Shown in pieces: positions 7,307-25,809 of a stretch of 33,240 nucleotides of DNA (its first letter is position 1; the number at the start of each line of letters is the position of its first letter). The stretch spans positions 1 to 33,240 of the forward strand of contig JAILRW010000136.1 of the NCBI GenBank assembly GCA_024698005.1, given 5' to 3'. The position numbers and the translations under genes are program-made. This DNA is from Sphaerochaetaceae bacterium. Its GTDB lineage: Bacteria; Spirochaetota; Spirochaetia; Sphaerochaetales; Sphaerochaetaceae. The notes beneath the pieces are model-generated. The model saw only the letters and a program-made list of their open reading frames with translations, searched no databases and had not been told where the DNA came from.

Positions 7307-8321
7307 ACTTCCTCCTGAACTTATAGCTCAGGAACCTGTAGAGAGAAGGGGAGATGAGAAGCTCCTTCTTTTAAATAAGAATACTGGACTCTTTGAAGAT
7401 AAAGTGATGAAGGATTTTCCTTCTCTTCTTGATGAGAACTCAATACTTGTAGTTAACAACTCAAAGGTCAGAAAGGCCAGATGTTTTGGTAAGACAGAAT
7501 TTGGAGGCCTTGTAGAATTTCTTTTCTTGGAAGAGAACGAAGACCACTCCTGGATCTGCATGATATCAAAATCAAAGAAGCAGAAAATTGGTAGAAAGTA
7601 CTCCTTCTATGATAAGAATGGAGAGCTTGTTAAAGTTGCAACCTTAATTGGTGAATATCCAGATGGAAACAGACAGGTAACTTTTGAAGAACCTCTCGAA
7701 GAAGAGTTCTTCTCTCGATGTGGCCATGTTCCTCTTCCTCCATATATCAAGAGAGAGGACAAGTTTTCTGACGAAACGAGATACCAGACAATCTATGCAA
7801 AGAATGAGGGGTCAGTTGCAGCTCCTACAGCAGGACTTCACTTCACTCCAGAAATCCTGGAAGAGATCAAGAATAGAGGAATTGAAATTGTAGAAGTAAC
7901 TCTTCATGTTGGTGCCGGAACATTTCTTCCTGTCAGAAGTGAAAATATTGAAGATCATCACATGCACTATGAAAGATATACAATCCTTCCTGAAGTTGCC
8001 GACAAACTCAATGAAGCAAAGAAGAGTGGCAAGAAGATTGTATCAGTTGGAACAACTAGCGTAAGAACACTTGAAAGTGCAGTGAACGAAAATGGATTAA
8101 TCGAAAGTGGAACAAGAAGAACAAATATATTTATCCACCCAGGTGTTCCTTTCCGTTTTGTAGATAACCTTTTGACTAATTTCCATACTCCAGAGTCAAC
8201 ATTGTTGATGCTTGTTAGTGCCCTGGCTGGAAAGGAGAATATCTTCAGAGCATATGAACACGCAGTACAAGAAAGGTACCGCTTCTTCAGTTATGGAGAT
8301 GCAATGTTCATCAATGGTTGA
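7281..8321 (+). CDS. queA: S-adenosylmethionine:tRNA ribosyltransferase-isomerase QueA
   Basis: QueA transfers the ribosyl part of SAM to preQ1 in tRNA, making epoxyqueuosine. It acts after Tgt, which is encoded at the far end of this window. The product has 346 residues from the ATG at 7281. It opens with FELPPELIAQEP and carries the family blocks SVAAPTAGLHFTPEIL, TLHVGAGTFLPV, VGTTSVRTLES and TNFHTPESTLLML. The frame is open from a GTG at 7269, but that would bury the AGAGGT at 7265-7270, which is a reasonable ribosome site for 7281. The gene overlaps ruvB by 26 bases. Its stop lies inside the end of the convergent tmk gene, the two coding regions sharing 11 bases. Confidence 0.96.
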   Translation: MLTKEYYFELPPELIAQEPVERRGDEKLLLLNKNTGLFEDKVMKDFPSLLDENSILVVNNSKVRKARCFGKTEFGGLVEFLFLEENEDHSWICMISKSKKQKIGRKYSFYDKNGELVKVATLIGEYPDGNRQVTFEEPLEEEFFSRCGHVPLPPYIKREDKFSDETRYQTIYAKNEGSVAAPTAGLHFTPEILEEIKNRGIEIVEVTLHVGAGTFLPVRSENIEDHHMHYERYTILPEVADKLNEAKKSGKKIVSVGTTSVRTLESAVNENGLIESGTRRTNIFIHPGVPFRFVDNLLTNFHTPESTLLMLVSALAGKENIFRAYEHAVQERYRFFSYGDAMFING

Positions 8322-8931
8322 TATAGCCTTCGATTTCCTTAAGTACCAATAAGGATGCTTCCACAGCACTTAGTTCTGCAGGAATCCTAATAAGTTTTAC
8401 GCCTTCAGGGAGTTCTCTGAAGGCTTTTTCAAAGTTTTCTCTGACACTCTTCAGATACTCTTCCTTTTCAAACAGTTCCTTTGCCTCTCCTCTAGAGTTA
8501 ATTCTTTCCATACAGAGAGAAACTGGTGCATCAAGGTAGATTACACATCGAGGATGAGGATAGTTGTTGATTGTCTTAACATAGTCAAAATCAAGCTGAA
8601 CTGTCTGATATGCAAGAGAAGAGTAGAAGTAACGATCAGAAAGAACGATTGTCCCTTCTTTTGTCTTTTTCTCAATTCCATAATCAGGATTGTAAAGATG
8701 GTCATGCCTGTCTGCAGAATAGAGCAGGGCCAATGCTTGGGGTGTAGTAATAATTTCATGTCTCAAAGCCTGTCTAACGACCTTGCCAATTGCATTATCT
8801 GTAGGTTCGAATGTAGTTTCTACATTAAAACCTATATTGATTAATGCATTGCCAAGAAGTTTGAGCTGGGTAGACTTTCCAGAGCCATCAAGACCTTCAA
8901 ACACAAAGAAATTATCAAGAACTTTATTCAT
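8311..8931 (-). CDS. tmk: Thymidylate kinase
   Basis: Phosphorylates dTMP to dTDP. The 206-residue product has the P-loop GLDGSGKST at 13-21, an FEPTD loop where many homologues have REPGG, the SADRHDHL and SDRYFYSSLAYQ nucleotide-binding blocks, the YLDAP strand, and a lid segment around RGEAKELFEK. The frame extends 11 codons upstream of the chosen ATG (8931). That ATG is preceded by GGAG with six bases between and gives normal family length. It is a single-gene unit on the minus strand between two plus-strand operons. It converges on queA with an 11-base overlap and diverges from tamB across about 80 bases. No terminator for tmk itself was seen. Confidence 0.95.
   Translation of the reverse strand: MNKVLDNFFVFEGLDGSGKSTQLKLLGNALINIGFNVETTFEPTDNAIGKVVRQALRHEIITTPQALALLYSADRHDHLYNPDYGIEKKTKEGTIVLSDRYFYSSLAYQTVQLDFDYVKTINNYPHPRCVIYLDAPVSLCMERINSRGEAKELFEKEEYLKSVRENFEKAFRELPEGVKLIRIPAELSAVEASLLVLKEIEGYINH
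8401..8429 (+). terminator. Intrinsic terminator for the queA operon, inside tmk (antisense)
   Basis: GCCTTCAG (8401-8408) and CTGAAGGC (8417-8424) form a perfect 8-bp stem around an 8-base loop, followed at once by TTTTT on the plus strand. It is 80 bases past the queA stop. The same bases encode the KAFRELPEG segment of tmk on the other strand. On the minus strand the stem is not followed by a T-run, so it should act only on plus-strand transcripts. Confidence 0.7.
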
Positions 8932-9013
8932 CCAAAACTCCAATTTCAAAGAATATAATAACAATTAGTGATGAATAAAAACAATCAATGGATTATATTT
9001 AAAATGGATAAAT

Positions 9014-16229: not shown

Positions 16230-18827
16230 ATGGCAGGAAAAAAGGATGAAATGACGCCAATGATGCGTCAATATCTTGAAATCAAAGGAGAGCATCCAGA
16301 CAAGGTGCTCTTCTTCCGTCTCGGCGACTTTTATGAAATGTTCAATGATGACGCATTAGAGATTTCAAGGCTTCTCAACCTTACACTTACTCACAGAGCT
16401 GGAAATCCTATGTGTGGAATTCCATTCCATGCAGCTAAGAATTATCTTAAAAGACTATTGGATGCAGGGAAAAAAGTTGCGATTTGTGAGCAACTTTCAT
16501 TACCTGAAAAAGCTGGAGAACTTGCAAAGCGTGAAGTTGTCCAGATCTACACACCAGGCACTATCATAGAAGATGATTTTCTTGATGGTGGATTGTCAAA
16601 CCATATTTTTTCTGTTCACTACACAAAGGGTGAGTACGTAGCCGCCTGGACTGATATCTCAACTGGCGATTTTTCTATTTCACACATCAAGAAGGACAAG
16701 AAATTATCAAACCTCAATGCGCTAATTTCCTCATTGTCAATTAGAGAAATAGTCGTCTCAGATGATTTATATTTTACTGATAGAGTTTTAAGAGATGTAC
16801 TCGATTCAACTGGATATATAGTTACTAAGCTTCCTGCTTGGTACTTTTCTAACAGGGAAGCGAAGAAGCAAATTCTTGAACAATTCGGAGCATTCAACTC
16901 TACAGTATTTGGCTTTGATGAGAATGATAGTGCGCTCACAGCAGCCGGAGGCCTTCTGAAATATGCTCTTGAAATGTGCAAAACTCCACTCAAGCAGATA
17001 AAGAGCATCAGACTAGTTACAGAAAATGGTAGACTTTCACTTGATGAAGCAACTGAAAAGAATCTTGAAATTGTAAGAAATCTAAGTGAAGGCAAGAGTG
17101 CCTACACCCTTTTATCTGCTATCAACAAGACTAAAACAAGTCCTGGCATGAGACTACTTAGGGAATTCATGTTGAATCCTCTCTCTGATTATGAACTAAT
17201 CAATGAACGCCTTGACTGGTGTGAATATCTTAATGCAAACATTGATGAGCGAAAGAGGGTAAGACAAGCCTTATCATCTGCTGCAGACCTCATTCGTCTT
17301 ACCAGTAAATTTGAGATGGGAAGAAGCGTTCCCCGTGATCTTATAAGTGTAAGGGAAACTCTTCTCTGTTTCTTTACTCTTGCAGGTAACAATGAGAAGT
17401 ACCTTTCATTGCTTGATAACGAGCTGAAAGCTCCTGAAAGGCTTACTGAGCTTTGTGAGAGAATCGGTAGAGAAATCAATCCAGAATGTACCAATATCAA
17501 TCATGTAGGCCGTATTCTATTATCAGGTTTTGATGAAGAACTTGATAGGCTCAGAGATATTGAGAATGGTTCAAGTGTTCTATTGGACAATTACCTTGAG
17601 AAGATCAAGGACGAAACAGGAATTACAATCCTCAGGATGGGCAATAACAAGATTATTGGAACCTATCTTGAAGTTTCCAAGGGACAAGTTTCCAGAGTAC
17701 CTGACTACTTTGTTAGAAGGCAGACTTTAGTCAACTGTGAAAGATTTACAACACCTGAACTTTCAGATATCGAGTTGAAGATCAACAGTGCAGCAGATGA
17801 AGCAACAAAGAGAGAGAAGGAGCTCTATCAAATCTTGGTCGATGATACTACAGCTCTCTCCTTTGAGCTGAGAAGTATAGGTAAACTATTATCATTACTT
17901 GATGTATACCAGAGCTTTGCAGAAATCAGTTCAGTCTGGAACTATACAAGACCAGAAATCATCATCGATGGAAAGCTTGAAATTACAGATGGTAGGCATC
18001 CTGTTGTAGAGCAACATCTTGCTAGTGGAAGTTTCGTTTCTAATTCTCTTTCCACAGAAGAATCGAGTTTCTTTCTGATCACAGGTCCAAACATGGCTGG
18101 TAAGTCTACATTCCTCAGACAGACAGCTTTAATTGTTCTTCTATCTCATATTGGCTGCTTTGTTCCTGCAAAGAAAGCAATAATTCCTATTACAGATTCA
18201 CTGTTCTGTAGGGTTGGTGCTTCTGATAATCTTGCTAGAGGAGAATCTACATTCCTTGTCGAGATGCAGGAGTCAGCACATATTTTAAGAAATGCAACAA
18301 AGCATTCACTCGTAATAATGGATGAAGTAGGTAGAGGTACCAGTACACAGGATGGTATGTCCTTGGCATATGCAATGATGAAGTTCCTCTCTCAAGTAGG
18401 ATGTACAACTCTATTTGCAACCCATTATCACGAACTTACAATGCTTGACACTCAGGGTATGGTACTACTGACACTTGAAGTTGAAGAGAACAAGAATGAA
18501 ATCAACTTCATAAGAAAGGTAATCAAAGGTGTTGCAAAATCATCCTACGGTCTCCACGTTGCCAAACTTGGTGGTGTTCCACAGTCAGTAATAAGAATGG
18601 CTGCAGATTTCCAGAAGCGTCACTTTGCAGATTATCGTCTTGAGGATGCAGCTGGTCAGATGGATCTCTTTACAGATACTGCCAAGGCAACTGAAGATTT
18701 CAAGAGCAAGGCGATGGATGAAATTCTTGATCTTGATATAACTTCAATGACACCACTCGATGCTCTGCTAACTCTTTCTGACTTACAGAAAAAGATAAGA
18801 AAAGAGCTGGGTAGTATTGACAGTTAA
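16230..18827 (+). CDS. mutS: DNA mismatch repair protein MutS
   Basis: MutS recognises mismatches and recruits MutL. The 865-residue product is full length. The mismatch-reading motif FYE is F34-Y35-E36 in GDFYEMF. The connector, core and clamp domains follow, then the ABC-type ATPase with Walker A GPNMAGKS at 619-626, Walker B LVIMDEVGRGTS, and the ATHYHEL histidine loop. A helix-turn-helix dimer segment is near the C-terminus. The gene is translated from an ATG three bases after bamA, with no ribosome site of its own outside bamA. No mutL is nearby. A strong terminator follows 43 bases after the stop. Confidence 0.97.
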   Translation: MAGKKDEMTPMMRQYLEIKGEHPDKVLFFRLGDFYEMFNDDALEISRLLNLTLTHRAGNPMCGIPFHAAKNYLKRLLDAGKKVAICEQLSLPEKAGELAKREVVQIYTPGTIIEDDFLDGGLSNHIFSVHYTKGEYVAAWTDISTGDFSISHIKKDKKLSNLNALISSLSIREIVVSDDLYFTDRVLRDVLDSTGYIVTKLPAWYFSNREAKKQILEQFGAFNSTVFGFDENDSALTAAGGLLKYALEMCKTPLKQIKSIRLVTENGRLSLDEATEKNLEIVRNLSEGKSAYTLLSAINKTKTSPGMRLLREFMLNPLSDYELINERLDWCEYLNANIDERKRVRQALSSAADLIRLTSKFEMGRSVPRDLISVRETLLCFFTLAGNNEKYLSLLDNELKAPERLTELCERIGREINPECTNINHVGRILLSGFDEELDRLRDIENGSSVLLDNYLEKIKDETGITILRMGNNKIIGTYLEVSKGQVSRVPDYFVRRQTLVNCERFTTPELSDIELKINSAADEATKREKELYQILVDDTTALSFELRSIGKLLSLLDVYQSFAEISSVWNYTRPEIIIDGKLEITDGRHPVVEQHLASGSFVSNSLSTEESSFFLITGPNMAGKSTFLRQTALIVLLSHIGCFVPAKKAIIPITDSLFCRVGASDNLARGESTFLVEMQESAHILRNATKHSLVIMDEVGRGTSTQDGMSLAYAMMKFLSQVGCTTLFATHYHELTMLDTQGMVLLTLEVEENKNEINFIRKVIKGVAKSSYGLHVAKLGGVPQSVIRMAADFQKRHFADYRLEDAAGQMDLFTDTAKATEDFKSKAMDEILDLDITSMTPLDALLTLSDLQKKIRKELGSIDS

Positions 18828-18845
18828 TAGTCAAAAAAGTAAATT
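18817..18845 (+). promoter_or_regulatory. Candidate promoter for the rimP-nusA-infB operon
   Basis: TTGACA (18817-18822, perfect consensus) lies at the very end of mutS. After 17 bases comes TAAATT (18840-18845, four of six), with further TATATA just beyond. A start near 18852 would place the terminator hairpin at 18870-18899 inside the leader. The -35 is also one arm of a TTGAC-N8-GTCAA dyad (18817-18834). Confidence 0.4.
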
Positions 18846-18869
18846 ATATATAGTTCAATTATTTTAAAT

Positions 18870-18899
18870 AAAGGAACCAATAAAGCTGGTTCCTTTTTT
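18870..18899 (+). terminator. Strong intrinsic terminator in the mutS-rimP gap (possible leader attenuator)
   Basis: AAAGGAACCA (18870-18879) and TGGTTCCTTT (18887-18896) form a perfect 10-bp stem with a 7-base loop, ending in a run of six T (18894-18899). The rimP ribosome site and start codon follow within about 14 bases. No promoter can therefore fit between the terminator and rimP, and transcription of rimP-nusA-infB must read through this hairpin. Confidence 0.85.
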
Positions 18900-18913
18900 A
18901 TTTGGGAAAAGGA

Positions 18914-19420
18914 ATGCTGAGTAACGATATTAGGGAAAATGCACTTTTCAATGAGATAGAAAGTCTTATCTCACCTATGAATCTCAAGGTTGTTGATGTA
19001 GTAAAGAACGACCTTCCTAGCGGCTGCCAGATGACAGTAACCATCTATTCAGAGGACAGGGAAGTAAATACAGATGATCTTGCAGAGGTCTATAATGTAA
19101 TCTACCCACGTTATCAGCTTCTGCTTGGAGAAAGAGATCTCAATCTAGAAGTCTCAAGTCCAGGCCTTACTAGAAATTTTAAAGATTTTTATGAATTTAC
19201 ACTATTTATGGGAAAGGTATGTAAAGTCTATTCCTCTACTTACTCTTCCTGGATCGAAGGTGTAATTAATAATGTTGACAATTCATCTGTCTTGCTTTGC
19301 AAGGCAATAATTCAAGATTCAGGAGAAGAGTTTGAAGAGCTGAAGCTCAACTTCTCCGAAATACAGAAGGCAAAGCTTTCATACCGTTGGGAGGAAGAAA
19401 ATAATGGTCAATCTAACTGA
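18914..19420 (+). CDS. rimP: Ribosome maturation factor RimP
   Basis: RimP assists late assembly of the 30S subunit. The 168-residue product has the expected two-domain layout: an N-terminal alpha/beta domain with VTIYSEDREVNTDDLAEV and the signature LNLEVSSPGLTRNF, then a C-terminal SH3-like barrel (WIEGVINNVD...FSEIQKAKLSY). The frame is open from a TTG at 18902. The ATG at 18914 is preferred because GGGAAAAGGA precedes it and the family usually starts about this far before the first helix. It is the first gene of the nusA/infB operon. It overlaps nusA by 17 bases, and a strong terminator sits directly upstream. Confidence 0.92.
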   Translation: MLSNDIRENALFNEIESLISPMNLKVVDVVKNDLPSGCQMTVTIYSEDREVNTDDLAEVYNVIYPRYQLLLGERDLNLEVSSPGLTRNFKDFYEFTLFMGKVCKVYSSTYSSWIEGVINNVDNSSVLLCKAIIQDSGEEFEELKLNFSEIQKAKLSYRWEEENNGQSN

Positions 19421-20906
19421 AGCCATCAATGAGATGATTGCTGAGAAGAACATCAGCAAAGAAATGGTAGAGGATACAGTTCGCGAATTTGTCAAAGCAG
19501 CTTATAAGAGAAAGTTCGGTACAGACGAGAATGTTATCGTCAACTTCATTGAAGATGATGGACAGATCAATTTGGAAGTCAGTGCTAGCAGAGTCGTAGT
19601 TGAAGAAGAGAACTACTATAATGAAGTAACTGAAATCCCTCTTGATGAAGCTAAAGAGATGAGCGAGGACGCAGAAGTAGGTGATGAGCTTGTTATCTCC
19701 CTTGATCCTCAGACATTTGACCGCAGTGCTGTTCAGTCTGCAAAGCAGAGAGCACAGCAGTCCTTCAAGGATATCCAGAACAACTATACTTACAAGGAAT
19801 TCAAGAACAAGGAAGGAAAGGTAATCCAGTGCTACGTCAACTCAATTACTCCATCCGGCGATCTTATCCTCAATGTTGGTAACAACACAGAAGGTATTCT
19901 TCCAAAGAAGAACATCTCTCCACTTGAAAGCTATACAGTTGGAGAAGGTCTCAAGTGCTATCTTGAAAGAGTTGAGAATGCAGAAAAGGCTGAAGATCTT
20001 CAGAAGCAGGGTGGTTTCAGAGGAAGAAAGCCTAAGAAGGATGTAAGAATCATTCTTTCCAGAACCTCTCCAGAGCTAGTCAGAAACTTCATTGAGGCAC
20101 AGGTTCCTGAAATTGATAATGGTCAGATCGAGATTGTAAATATTGTTAGAGAAGCAGGTTTCAGGACTAAGGTTGCTGTTAGAACCTTCTCTGATATTGA
20201 CCCAATCGGTGCAACAGTTGGCCTCAGAGGTATCAGAATCCAGACCATCATGCAGGAAATTGATGGTGAAAAGATTGATGTCATCAAGTGGGAAGATAAT
20301 CCTCTTCTCCTTATCAGCAATGCATTGACTCCTGCAAGAGTAAACAAGGTTCTTGTTCTCAATGCAGAAACCCGTCAGGCTGTTGCAATTGTTGATGAAA
20401 ACCAGGTTGGTCTTGCAATTGGACAGAAGGGTGTCAACGTCAAACTCGCCAAGAAACTCTGTGATTGGCTTATTGAGGTAAAGACTCAGGCAGAGTATGA
20501 CCAGATGGAAATCAGCCAGGAGATCAGAAATCAAGCTGAAGCTATTTTCGAGCAGGGTGGTGATAGCCTTATCGAAAATGAAGTTGCAGATGAAGATAGA
20601 ATCTACACCAAGGAAGAACTTGGAATTGGAGAAGATGAAAATCTTCTTTCCGATCTTCCTCTTTCAAAGGAGCTCGTATTAAAGCTCAATAGAATGGACG
20701 TATATACTGCTGAAGAATATTTCAACATGACAGATGAAGAAAGAGAAGGTCTTGGTCTTACAGAAGATGAAGTCAATGAGATCAACTCCTGTGTTGCAGT
20801 CGAAGAAGAATACGATGACTCCTTCGAATGTCCAACCTGTCATCAGATACTTCCAGCAGGTACTCTCAAGTGTCCACACTGCATGACAGAGTTTGTCTTT
20901 GAATAA
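19404..20906 (+). CDS. nusA: Transcription factor NusA with C-terminal zinc ribbon
   Basis: NusA binds RNA polymerase and modulates pausing, termination and antitermination. Of 500 residues, the N-terminal polymerase-binding domain is about 1-125 and the S1 domain about 137-220, with a basic GGFRGRKPKKD insertion near 203-213. KH1 is about 225-300 (PIGATVGLRGIRIQ) and KH2 about 305-365 (LAIGQKGVNVKLA). Next come an acidic linker and one helix-hairpin-helix-like repeat (about 405-465). The tail is unusual: C476, C479, C490 and C493 make a CX2C-X10-CX2C zinc ribbon (CPTCHQILPAGTLKCPHC) at the very end, where Escherichia coli NusA has acidic repeats. The ATG follows GGGAGG by nine bases and overlaps rimP, indicating coupled translation. 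infB follows after 20 bases. Confidence 0.95.
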   Translation: MVNLTEAINEMIAEKNISKEMVEDTVREFVKAAYKRKFGTDENVIVNFIEDDGQINLEVSASRVVVEEENYYNEVTEIPLDEAKEMSEDAEVGDELVISLDPQTFDRSAVQSAKQRAQQSFKDIQNNYTYKEFKNKEGKVIQCYVNSITPSGDLILNVGNNTEGILPKKNISPLESYTVGEGLKCYLERVENAEKAEDLQKQGGFRGRKPKKDVRIILSRTSPELVRNFIEAQVPEIDNGQIEIVNIVREAGFRTKVAVRTFSDIDPIGATVGLRGIRIQTIMQEIDGEKIDVIKWEDNPLLLISNALTPARVNKVLVLNAETRQAVAIVDENQVGLAIGQKGVNVKLAKKLCDWLIEVKTQAEYDQMEISQEIRNQAEAIFEQGGDSLIENEVADEDRIYTKEELGIGEDENLLSDLPLSKELVLKLNRMDVYTAEEYFNMTDEEREGLGLTEDEVNEINSCVAVEEEYDDSFECPTCHQILPAGTLKCPHCMTEFVFE

Positions 20907-20926: not shown

Positions 20927-23527
20927 ATGAATAATGAAAATAAACCTAAAGTAACAATCATCAAGAAGAGCCCAGTAAAAGAGCAGAAGGAACAGGAAAA
21001 GAGCACAGCCTCTACTTCTGTTCAGCCTAAGGTTACTGTAATCAAAAGAGTACAGCAGACTGTAAAAGTCAAACCTAAGGAAGAGCCAAAGAAGGAAGAA
21101 AAGACTGAAGAAAAGAAAATCACAGTATCTCCTGCTCTTGGTATCAAGAAAGAGGCTCCTGTTCAGCCTAAGCCAGCAGCCCAGACTAGACCAGTTGTCA
21201 AAAGACCTGTTAGGACTGGTGCCATGGCTCCTGAAGCCAACAAAAATATCATTCGTGGAGAAAGGATTGCATCCAATCTTCACAATGGTCCAGTCATCAT
21301 CAAGAGCGGAAACCTTCCTCCTGTACCAGGACAGAAGGTTGATACTCCAGCCCCAACTAACAGACCTAGAGTAGCTGGTATTGTTGGTGGAAAACCAACT
21401 AGAACACCAGGCCAGAGATCTTTTGGTAATTTCGATAGAAAAAACGGCCAAAATGGTGGCTTTAATAGAAACAATAATGGTGAAGGTGGAAGAAACTTTG
21501 GTAATAAGAACAACCAGGGTGGATTCAACCGCAATAATAATGGTCAGGGTGGAAGACCTTTTGGTAACCGTCCATTTACTCCTCGTCCTAATCAGGGCGG
21601 CGCAGGAGAGAGTGTAGATCTCAACCAGAAGGGCAACCAGAGAAAAGCTCCAACCAACTCCAAGAAGAAGAGTGAAGATTACAGAAACAGAAGAGATCAG
21701 GAGATCGATTTCCAGTATCAGCTCAAGAAGAAGGAAGAAAGCAAGCTTGCTGCAGTTCCTAAGTCAATTGATATCATGGAAAACATCACTGTTGCTGAGC
21801 TTGCAAAGAAGATGAATCTCAAGCCAGCAGATATCATCTCCAAACTCTTCAAGATGGGTACAATGGTCACTATCAATCAGCAGATTGACCATGAAACAGC
21901 TGAAATCATCTGTTCAGAGTACAACTGTGAAGTTCACCTCGTTTCTCTCTACGATGAAACCATCATCGAGGAAGAGGTCGATAACGAAGAGGATCTTGTC
22001 CCAAGATCTCCTATCGTTACCATCATGGGTCATGTCGACCATGGTAAGACCAAACTTCTTGATGCAATCCGTTCAACTAACGTTGTAGCAGGAGAATTTG
22101 GTGGAATCACACAGCACATCGGTGCTTACAAGGTCAAGGTACCAGGAAAGGTCGATGTCGTATTCCTCGATACTCCGGGCCATGCAGCATTCTCAATGAT
22201 GAGAGCTCGTGGTGCTCAAGTTACAGATATTGTAGTACTTGTAGTTGCAGCTAATGATGGTGTTATGCCTCAGACAAGAGAAGCTATTGACCATGCTATG
22301 GCAGCAAAGGTACCTATCATTGTTGCTATCAACAAGGTCGATCTTCCTGAAGCAAATCCTGATAGAGTCATGCAGCAGCTTTCTGAGATAGGTCTCGTTC
22401 CAGAAGAATGGGGTGGCCAGACTCTCTACTGCAAGATTTCTGCTCTCAAGAAGGAAGGTATCGATGACCTTCTTGAAACAATTCTTCTTCAGGCTGAAAT
22501 GCTTGAGCTCAAGGCTAATCCTAACTGTAGAGCAGTTGGTAAGGTTCTTGAATCTAGAATTGATCAGGGTAGAGGTACTGTAGCAACTGTTATGGTACAG
22601 AAGGGTACTCTCAGACAGGGAGACTACTATGTCGCTGGTATCTACCCAGGTAGAGTTAGAGCGATGTTCGACGACAAGGGCAAGAAGATCAAGGAAGCTG
22701 GTCCTTCAACTCCTGTTGAAATCATCGGCCTCTCTGATGTTCCATCAGCTGGTGACCCGTTCCAGGTTACAGAGGATGAAAAGACTGCAAGAACTATCGG
22801 TGCAAAGAGACAGGAACTTGAAAAGCTTGGAGCTGGTGCTGGTGGTAACAAGGTTACACTTGAGAACCTCTCCGAGAAGATCAAGGAAGGCTCTATTCAG
22901 GACTTCAATGTCATCATCAAGGGTGATGTACAAGGTTCTGTTGAAGCACTCCAGAGCACACTTGAAAAGCTATCTACCCCTGAAATCCGCTTGAAGGCAA
23001 TCAGAGCAGCTGCTGGTGCAATCATTGAATCTGATATCACACTTGCTTCTGCTTCAAATGCACTTGTCATTGGCTTCAATGTAAGACCAACACCAAGGGC
23101 ACAGGTTCTTGCTGAGCAGGAGAAGGTAGAAATCAAGAAGTACAATGTCATCTATGATGTTGTAGACGACGTAAAGGCTGCTATGGAAGGTATGCTTTCA
23201 CCAGATATCAAGGAAGTCGATATCGGAAAGGGCGAAGTCAGAGATACATTCCGTGTACCAAAGGTCGGCGTAGTTGCTGGTGTATACATCACAGAGGGCA
23301 AGGTCACAAGAAACTGCTTTGTTCGTGTTATCCGTGACTCCATCCAGATCAACCAGGAGAACATCAAGATGTCCTCTCTCAAGAGATTCAAGGATGATGC
23401 TAAGGAAGTCACTGTTGGCTACGAATGTGGTGTAGGACTTGAAAACTTCCAGGATATCCAGGTTGGTGACCAGCTTGAATTTGTCCTCAAGCAGGAAGTC
23501 GCAAGAAAGTTGGATTTTGAATTATGA
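20927..23527 (+). CDS. infB: Translation initiation factor IF-2
   Basis: IF-2 is the GTPase that places initiator tRNA on the ribosome and promotes subunit joining. Of 866 residues, the first ~280 are disordered: a Lys/Glu/Pro-rich part, then a Gly/Asn/Arg-rich part with tandem repeats at 177-218. An IF2_N helical domain is at about 286-335. The GTPase has G1 GHVDHGKT at 368-375, the switch with [11 protein letters not shown]3 DTPGH at 415-419 and G4 NKVD at 469-472. Domains II-IV complete the protein. The ATG at 20927 is preceded by AGGGTG at some distance (13 bases). The stop overlaps the rbfA start by four bases (ATGA). Confidence 0.97.
21455..21580 (+). repeat. Tandem 63-bp repeat (two copies) in the infB N-terminal region
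   Basis: Two adjacent imperfect copies (21455-21517 and 21518-21580) encode 21-residue units. Each begins GGFNRNNNG followed by E or Q, then GGR and FGN. The DNA differs mainly at third codon positions, so the repeat is held at protein level rather than being a recent duplication. It forms a Gly/Asn/Arg-rich flexible segment upstream of the IF2_N domain. Confidence 0.8.
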
Positions 23528-25779: not shown

Positions 25780-25809
25780 GAAAAGCTCAGTCGACTGGCT
25801 GAGCTTTTC
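25780..25809 (+). terminator. Terminator-like or RNase III-like hairpin between rpsO and pnp
   Basis: GAAAAGCTCAG (25780-25790) and CTGAGCTTTTC (25799-25809) form a perfect 11-bp stem with an 8-base loop. The T-run is only four bases and is part of the stem, so termination is probably partial. A processing site in an rpsO-pnp transcript is equally likely. Confidence 0.55.

Follow-up and report, generated by a model that had tools for sequence, protein, structure and literature searches.

The window, which here means the whole analysed stretch of 33,240 nucleotides from a Sphaerochaetaceae bacterium (assembly size 1.68 Mb), contains mutS followed by rimP, nusA and infB, all on the forward strand. 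A short leader with its own promoter and terminator lies between mutS and rimP. The features are the following:

16230..18827, + strand: mutS, the upstream gene here, with MutS domains I-V; its last codons overlap the -35 element of the leader promoter
18817..18822, + strand: -35 element TTGACA of the leader promoter, from sequence match and conservation
18840..18845, + strand: -10 element TAAATT after a 17-nt spacer, from sequence match and conservation
18851..18853, + strand: putative transcription start, ~7 nt past the -10 element; the genus-conserved segment AGTTCAATT begins here
18853..18877, + strand: alternative 5' hairpin, antiterminator-like, mutually exclusive with the terminator; GUUC (18853-18856) pairs with GAAC (18874-18877) and UUAUU (18859-18863) with AAUAA (18867-18871)
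18870..18896, + strand: intrinsic-terminator hairpin with a 10-bp stem and a 7-nt loop
18894..18899, + strand: U-tract of six T
18907..18913, + strand: likely ribosome-binding site AAAAGGA, judged from its sequence
18914..19420, + strand: rimP, starting at ATG 18914, with a RimP_N domain; the start is conserved in relatives
19404..20906, + strand: nusA, with NusA_N and KH_5 domains; putative source of the feedback and the gene that the leader follows
20927..23527, + strand: infB (IF-2), third gene of the operon

The terminator and its promoter in the window

The terminator stem (18870-18879 / 18887-18896, AAAGGAACCA...TGGTTCCTTT) is a perfect helix of 10 bp with only four G-C pairs, and 14 bases separate the end of the U-tract from the rimP ATG at 18914. 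The preliminary description gave a perfect 10-bp stem and six T about 14 bases before rimP, and each of these numbers holds on re-measuring. As the three outer A-U pairs consume the first three T of the run, it is safer to speak of a 7-bp core followed by a full U-tract. The TTG at 18902 is only the mechanical start of the rimP reading frame.

The stem-loop alone has a predicted energy of -12.1 kcal/mol. The 60-nt hairpin region has a z-score of -3.1 against dinucleotide shuffles and folds better than 198 of 200 of them. Among the terminator-like sites on the + strand of the 33-kb window the leader hairpin ranks second. The top-scoring one (8401-8424) lies inside a thymidylate-kinase-like gene on the opposite strand (8311-8964), and a further terminator-like hairpin, AGCTCAGTCGACTGGCTGAGCTTTTC, is found at 25784-25805, shortly before pnp.

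The promoter, TTGACA-17-TAAATT (18817-18845), matches 10 of 12 consensus positions, which is the joint-best match between 15000 and 25000. Over the whole window such promoter matches number 21 against 19 expected, no more than chance would give; the leader promoter is nevertheless taken as real because it is conserved in relatives. The TTGACA with a possible -10 element just upstream of the hairpin, as originally proposed, is in this way borne out. The hairpin begins 42 nt past the mutS stop and about 20 nt past the putative start, so that a terminated RNA would be ~45-50 nt long.

The NusA protein itself ends in a zinc-ribbon-like tail, CPxC...CPxC (residues 475-493, window 20826-20882), matched by Pfam UPF0547 below the cut-off of that family. 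Its four cysteines are invariant in ten NusA sequences of the family, and a similar tail is found at L171.

Conservation across Spirochaetota

A conserved hairpin in related genomes had been suggested as a check. Using two detectors, we find a terminator before rimP in 184 of 198 distinct spirochaete upstream regions, a count that includes a few picks of a neighbouring repeat instead of the leader hairpin (e.g. L050, L225). By group, the terminator is present in 69/70 regions of the own family, 28/29 of the rest of the class, 25/36 of other classes and 63/64 of a named set. The named relatives in a public genome set are Spirochaetales MAGs, including Sphaerochaeta species. Detector misses include Brachyspira-like regions, where the hairpin lies farther upstream (L236, L237; also L317). 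No leader hairpin was found before rimP in L218 (genome G194, 1.1 Mb), L246-L248 (family f26), L254, L257, L263, L264 and L266.

The promoter is widespread, too. A match of at least 9/12 lies ahead of the hairpin in 157 of 163 leaders (27% of shuffles), and an exact TTGACA in 123 of 163 (1.3% in shuffles). The distance from promoter to hairpin hardly varies: 136 of the 163 leaders, but just 4.4% of shuffles, have the -10 element 22-34 nt ahead of the hairpin. Within the window's genus the complete block, that is TTGACA, 17 or 18 nt, -10 element, AGTTCAATT, hairpin, U-tract and rimP, is found in 16 of 16 genomes, one of which has AGTTCAGTT in place of AGTTCAATT. In other genera of the family the layout is the same while the stem sequence differs (GGGACC, GGGATCGC, GGAATCG). 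The layout is also seen in Treponema-like, Borrelia-sized (L230-L233) and many other lineages, with stems such as GAGTCG...CGACTC and GAGTGGC...GCCACTC. Candidatus Aphodenecus shares the motif of the window's genus (g1), and Candidatus Ornithospirochaeta carries that of a second genus (g10). The leader layout spans the phylum Spirochaetota, including nearly all sequenced relatives.

The stem also covaries. In an alignment of 51 hairpins of the family, one stem pair shows a compensatory change, with G-C in 32 sequences and A-U in the other 19. Cells changed on both sides number 31, against 11.2 after shuffling, and when the partner is slid by one column the stem pairing falls from 89% to 62-68%.

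We also searched for the pattern AGTTCAATT-N1-22-GGAAC as a sign of the same leader at other genes of the genus. It returned the rimP leader in 15 of 16 genus genomes and a handful of strays, of which the two in the window's own genome are not terminators; the reversed pattern gave two matches. Use of this leader at other genes was rejected, given that mainly rimP leaders were returned.

Two simpler readings of the hairpin can be weighed against these data. One is that it arose by chance, and shuffled upstream regions do yield such hairpins at 1-3% (2.7% in one control, about 1% in another); conservation together with covariation leaves this explanation practically without credit. The other, offered by the preliminary description as the simpler one, is a mutS terminator with strong read-through and nothing regulatory about it. 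Its position, 42 nt past the mutS stop, would suit this role, and 65 of 66 regions with mutS upstream have the terminator. However, so do 119 of 132 regions where mutS was not detected upstream, and even within the window's genus only 9 of 16 genomes had a detectable mutS upstream, the other 7 having none. Further, the DNA 5' of TTGACA is unrelated among several genus genomes, and a conserved promoter between mutS and the hairpin would be needless for a plain mutS terminator. Because the block is conserved irrespective of the upstream gene, we reject this reading as very improbable.

What the leader follows is rather the gene downstream. In almost all genomes searched rimP stands directly before nusA. 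In three genomes, G300 (leader L171), G303 (L300) and G161 (L235), a whole-genome search detected no rimP, and nusA is the gene that immediately follows the leader. For G300 and G303 this leader aligns with that of the sister genome G328, which retains rimP, and infB comes after nusA in both G300 and G303. No clear leader is seen in G164, a fourth genome in which rimP was not detectable. These rimP-less cases are draft assemblies, and a promoter would be kept anyway, so the informative point is that the terminator is kept too. As the leader is retained in genomes with no detectable rimP, it serves nusA-infB and tracks nusA rather than rimP; the three cases indicate nusA as the controlled gene.

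By its anatomy the leader is an attenuator, as it is a terminator with its own promoter just ahead, conserved and covarying. This agrees with what was first proposed from the short promoter-leader-terminator arrangement, a block now seen upstream of rimP across Spirochaetota, also without mutS, and directly before nusA. The accompanying statement that every rimP-nusA-infB transcript must read through the terminator is too strong for nusA and infB, where internal promoters within rimP or nusA are possible.

Candidate signal and the alternative 5' hairpin

We propose that RNA polymerase would start at the promoter (18817-18845), make ~45-50 nt and meet the intrinsic terminator, so that only the read-through fraction would enter rimP-nusA-infB. 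Plentiful NusA would stimulate termination at the hairpin, while scarce NusA would allow more read-through, a negative feedback. NusA is a general transcription factor that promotes pausing, and its cellular level is believed to be under tight control. Taken together, the leader of rimP-nusA-infB probably holds a transcription attenuator for which NusA itself is the most likely signal. The start site, termination in cells and the role of NusA are all three what we infer from the arrangement of the locus.

The size of the leader narrows the choice of signals. Between the putative start and the terminator (~20 nt) no sensor domain or open reading frame was found, nor was there an Rfam match. A leader peptide, T-box or riboswitch would not fit into these ~20 nt. 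This speaks for a general transcription factor, one that acts on the polymerase or on the hairpin. NusA-responsiveness of the spirochaete leader is plausible by homology, as its layout is that of the published precedents. One feature counts against NusA: the window terminator is strong, with a perfect, uninterrupted tract of six U, and the U-tracts of NusA- and NusG-dependent terminators in B. subtilis are reported to be preferentially interrupted in their distal part. In the second genus the U-tracts are interrupted (TTTATTTATG). The spirochaete lineages in which no leader hairpin was found also count against the proposed feedback.

An attenuator could also respond to something other than NusA, for instance RimP, IF-2, NusG, a ribosomal protein, nucleotide levels or growth rate. 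The products of the operon act in ribosome assembly and translation, NusG too stimulates intrinsic termination in B. subtilis, and the role of NusA here is argued by analogy. Yet the interval between start and hairpin is too small for a large sensor, and NusA feedback on the rimP-nusA-infB operon has been reported in both B. subtilis and E. coli. RimP in particular is an unlikely signal, given that the leader also precedes nusA in genomes where no rimP was found. On balance we regard a signal other than NusA as unlikely, if far from negligible, and keep NusA as the preferred one.

NusA-related RNA motifs were considered as well. The genus motif AGUUCAAU has UCAAU in common with the boxC RNA of M. 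tuberculosis, but a boxC-like NusA site was rejected, as a match of five letters is too short and rRNA leaders of the family have GUCAAU far from boxA. In several rimP leaders of the family the terminator is immediately preceded by GAUUUUUG, which resembles the boxA-like GAUUUUUGACAGA in the rRNA leaders of those genera. As a general feature of the leader boxA was rejected, GAUUUUUG being absent from other clades, and it is a lead only. The rRNA leaders L101, L113, L116 and L103-L105 have in common a boxA resembling GAUUUUUGACAGA and, following a hairpin, a conserved GUCAAU.

The 5' end of the RNA offers a possible route to factor dependence. In the window's genus it can pair with the 5' arm of the terminator, and the same shape is predicted in 15 of 15 leaders analysed: 4 bp, a small internal loop, 4-6 bp and a loop of 3-7 nt. 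The inner helix differs by species (UUAUU:AAUAA, UUUUC:GAAAA or other). In the second genus 24 of 24 leaders have GUUUC:GGGAC together with UUAAA:UUUAA or UUUAAA:UUUAAA, and the loop is GUGA, GUAA, GCAA or GAGA, always GNRA. Compared with shuffled 5' segments, the mean z is -2.77 in the window's genus and -3.30 in the second genus; it is weak (-0.69) in the remaining clades and not above chance (0.07) in termite Treponema.

The RNAalifold support from a MAFFT alignment of the 5' hairpin is weak. Since this alignment misplaces the variable loop, we instead swapped the halves of the hairpin between species. Native combinations average -5.87 kcal/mol and chimeras -4.01 kcal/mol, with a permutation p-value of 0.0002, or 0.0036 on representatives, both of which are optimistic because the genomes are related. 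In the window the 5' hairpin is weak (-3.8 kcal/mol) next to the terminator (-12.1 kcal/mol). Nevertheless, when the growing transcript is folded, a calculation that leaves out kinetics and contacts with polymerase or proteins, the 5' hairpin is the best structure while the polymerase is between 18887 and 18901; the terminator takes over only at 18902, once the polymerase has just cleared the U-tract. Given this result, termination would depend on pausing, promoted by NusA.

In the window's genus, then, the 5' end of the RNA may pair first with the 5' arm of the terminator, and termination would need time or help for the rearrangement. The hairpin at 18853-18877 would be a genuine antiterminator that a factor stabilises or melts, an idea compatible with the attenuator explanation. 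For the two Sphaerochaetaceae genera the folding predictions outline a possible minimal two-state switch of 50 nt, in which a 5'-terminal hairpin (GNRA-capped in one genus) would hold the terminator arm until pausing lengthened by NusA lets the terminator displace it. The constant shape in both genera, their z-values, the GNRA-only loops, the better pairing of native halves and the fold of the growing transcript all favour such a switch, but they have to be set against the weak hairpin of the window, the weak RNAalifold support, p-values made optimistic by relatedness, and clades in which the fold is weak or at chance. We therefore put it forward tentatively, as a possibility that falls short of being the probable one. 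If true, this is how a strong terminator would come to sense NusA, and a competing 5' hairpin is a concrete way to make a strong terminator factor-dependent. The very short leader would be a simple template in vitro.

The termite-gut Treponema leaders L284-L313 (also L174, L182, L189) carry a conserved 5' segment, AUAGUUUUUCAUUUAAAA, with no significant folding. An antiterminator in termite Treponema was rejected, as the conserved AGUUUUUCAUUUAAAAA segment folds no better than chance.

Comparison with published leaders of the nusA operon

The rimP-leader was named by Naville & Gautheret 2010 (PMC2965389), who proposed NusA as its regulator; rimP ranked first among the genes with predicted attenuators, and spirochaetes are not mentioned in the main text. 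As here, it is an intrinsic terminator just upstream of rimP-nusA-infB whose 5' arm is rich in G and whose 3' arm is rich in C, lying 4-130 nt ahead of the start of the gene (14 nt from U-tract to ATG in the window). Its signature GGGc...gCCC is, however, not that of the window, which has GGAACC...GGUUCC. Other spirochaete stems are GGGACC, GGGAUCGC, GAGUCG and GAGUGGC, and some relatives come closer to the signature (GAGTGGC...GCCACTC, GGGATCGC). No antiterminator was seen in the general form of the rimP-leader, while two genera here have a candidate for one.

The preliminary description had pointed to a NusA-dependent leader terminator in Bacillus subtilis, correctly so: attenuation at the terminator of its own leader autoregulates NusA in this organism (Mondal et al. 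2016, in the summary given by PMC12288461). Going by that summary, polymerase is let into the nusA operon or stopped short of it at this leader terminator, as we propose here. The order of promoter, leader, intrinsic terminator and nusA operon is also found in the window, the promoter being assigned by consensus and conservation. The differences are that the leader measures about 180 nt in B. subtilis (PMC2965389), against about 50 nt here, and that stimulation by NusA is, following the same summary, demonstrated there and deduced here.

In length the closest case is the gbs0413-gbs0418 operon of Streptococcus agalactiae (PMC4448216), where the leader RNA terminates 31 nt past its start and NusA feedback was proposed. 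This leader, too, is very short and has its terminator before rimP-nusA-infB. It belongs to a different phylum, and its start and 3' end were mapped by RNA-seq, whereas both are predicted from sequence here. NusA feedback has also been described for E. coli (PMC6511841). The metY-nusA-infB operon of E. coli, with its terminators t1/t2, resembles the window in having a hairpin, ACTGGGCTTTAGGCCC-TTTTTTT, just before rimP, but unlike the window it has a tRNA and a second terminator upstream. The Rfam family RF01770 (rimP) is built on this E. coli form; at its gathering cut-off of 47 bits it matches neither the window nor 20 relatives, and only 1 of 14 control genomes passes. At curated thresholds no Rfam family matches the window. 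Within spirochaetes, a study of RNA ends in B. burgdorferi (PMC10319736) calls NusA and NusG unstudied in that organism.

The leader is a spirochaete form of the published rimP-leader, and both the kind of attenuator and the NusA idea were already known. The same promoter-terminator-nusA layout, this far from Bacillus and E. coli, suggests that the feedback is old or has been chosen repeatedly. Compared with the main texts of these papers, four things are new: the Spirochaetota-wide layout, the clade-specific stems that fail GGGc...gCCC, a leader that is retained ahead of nusA when rimP is missing, and the antiterminator candidate.
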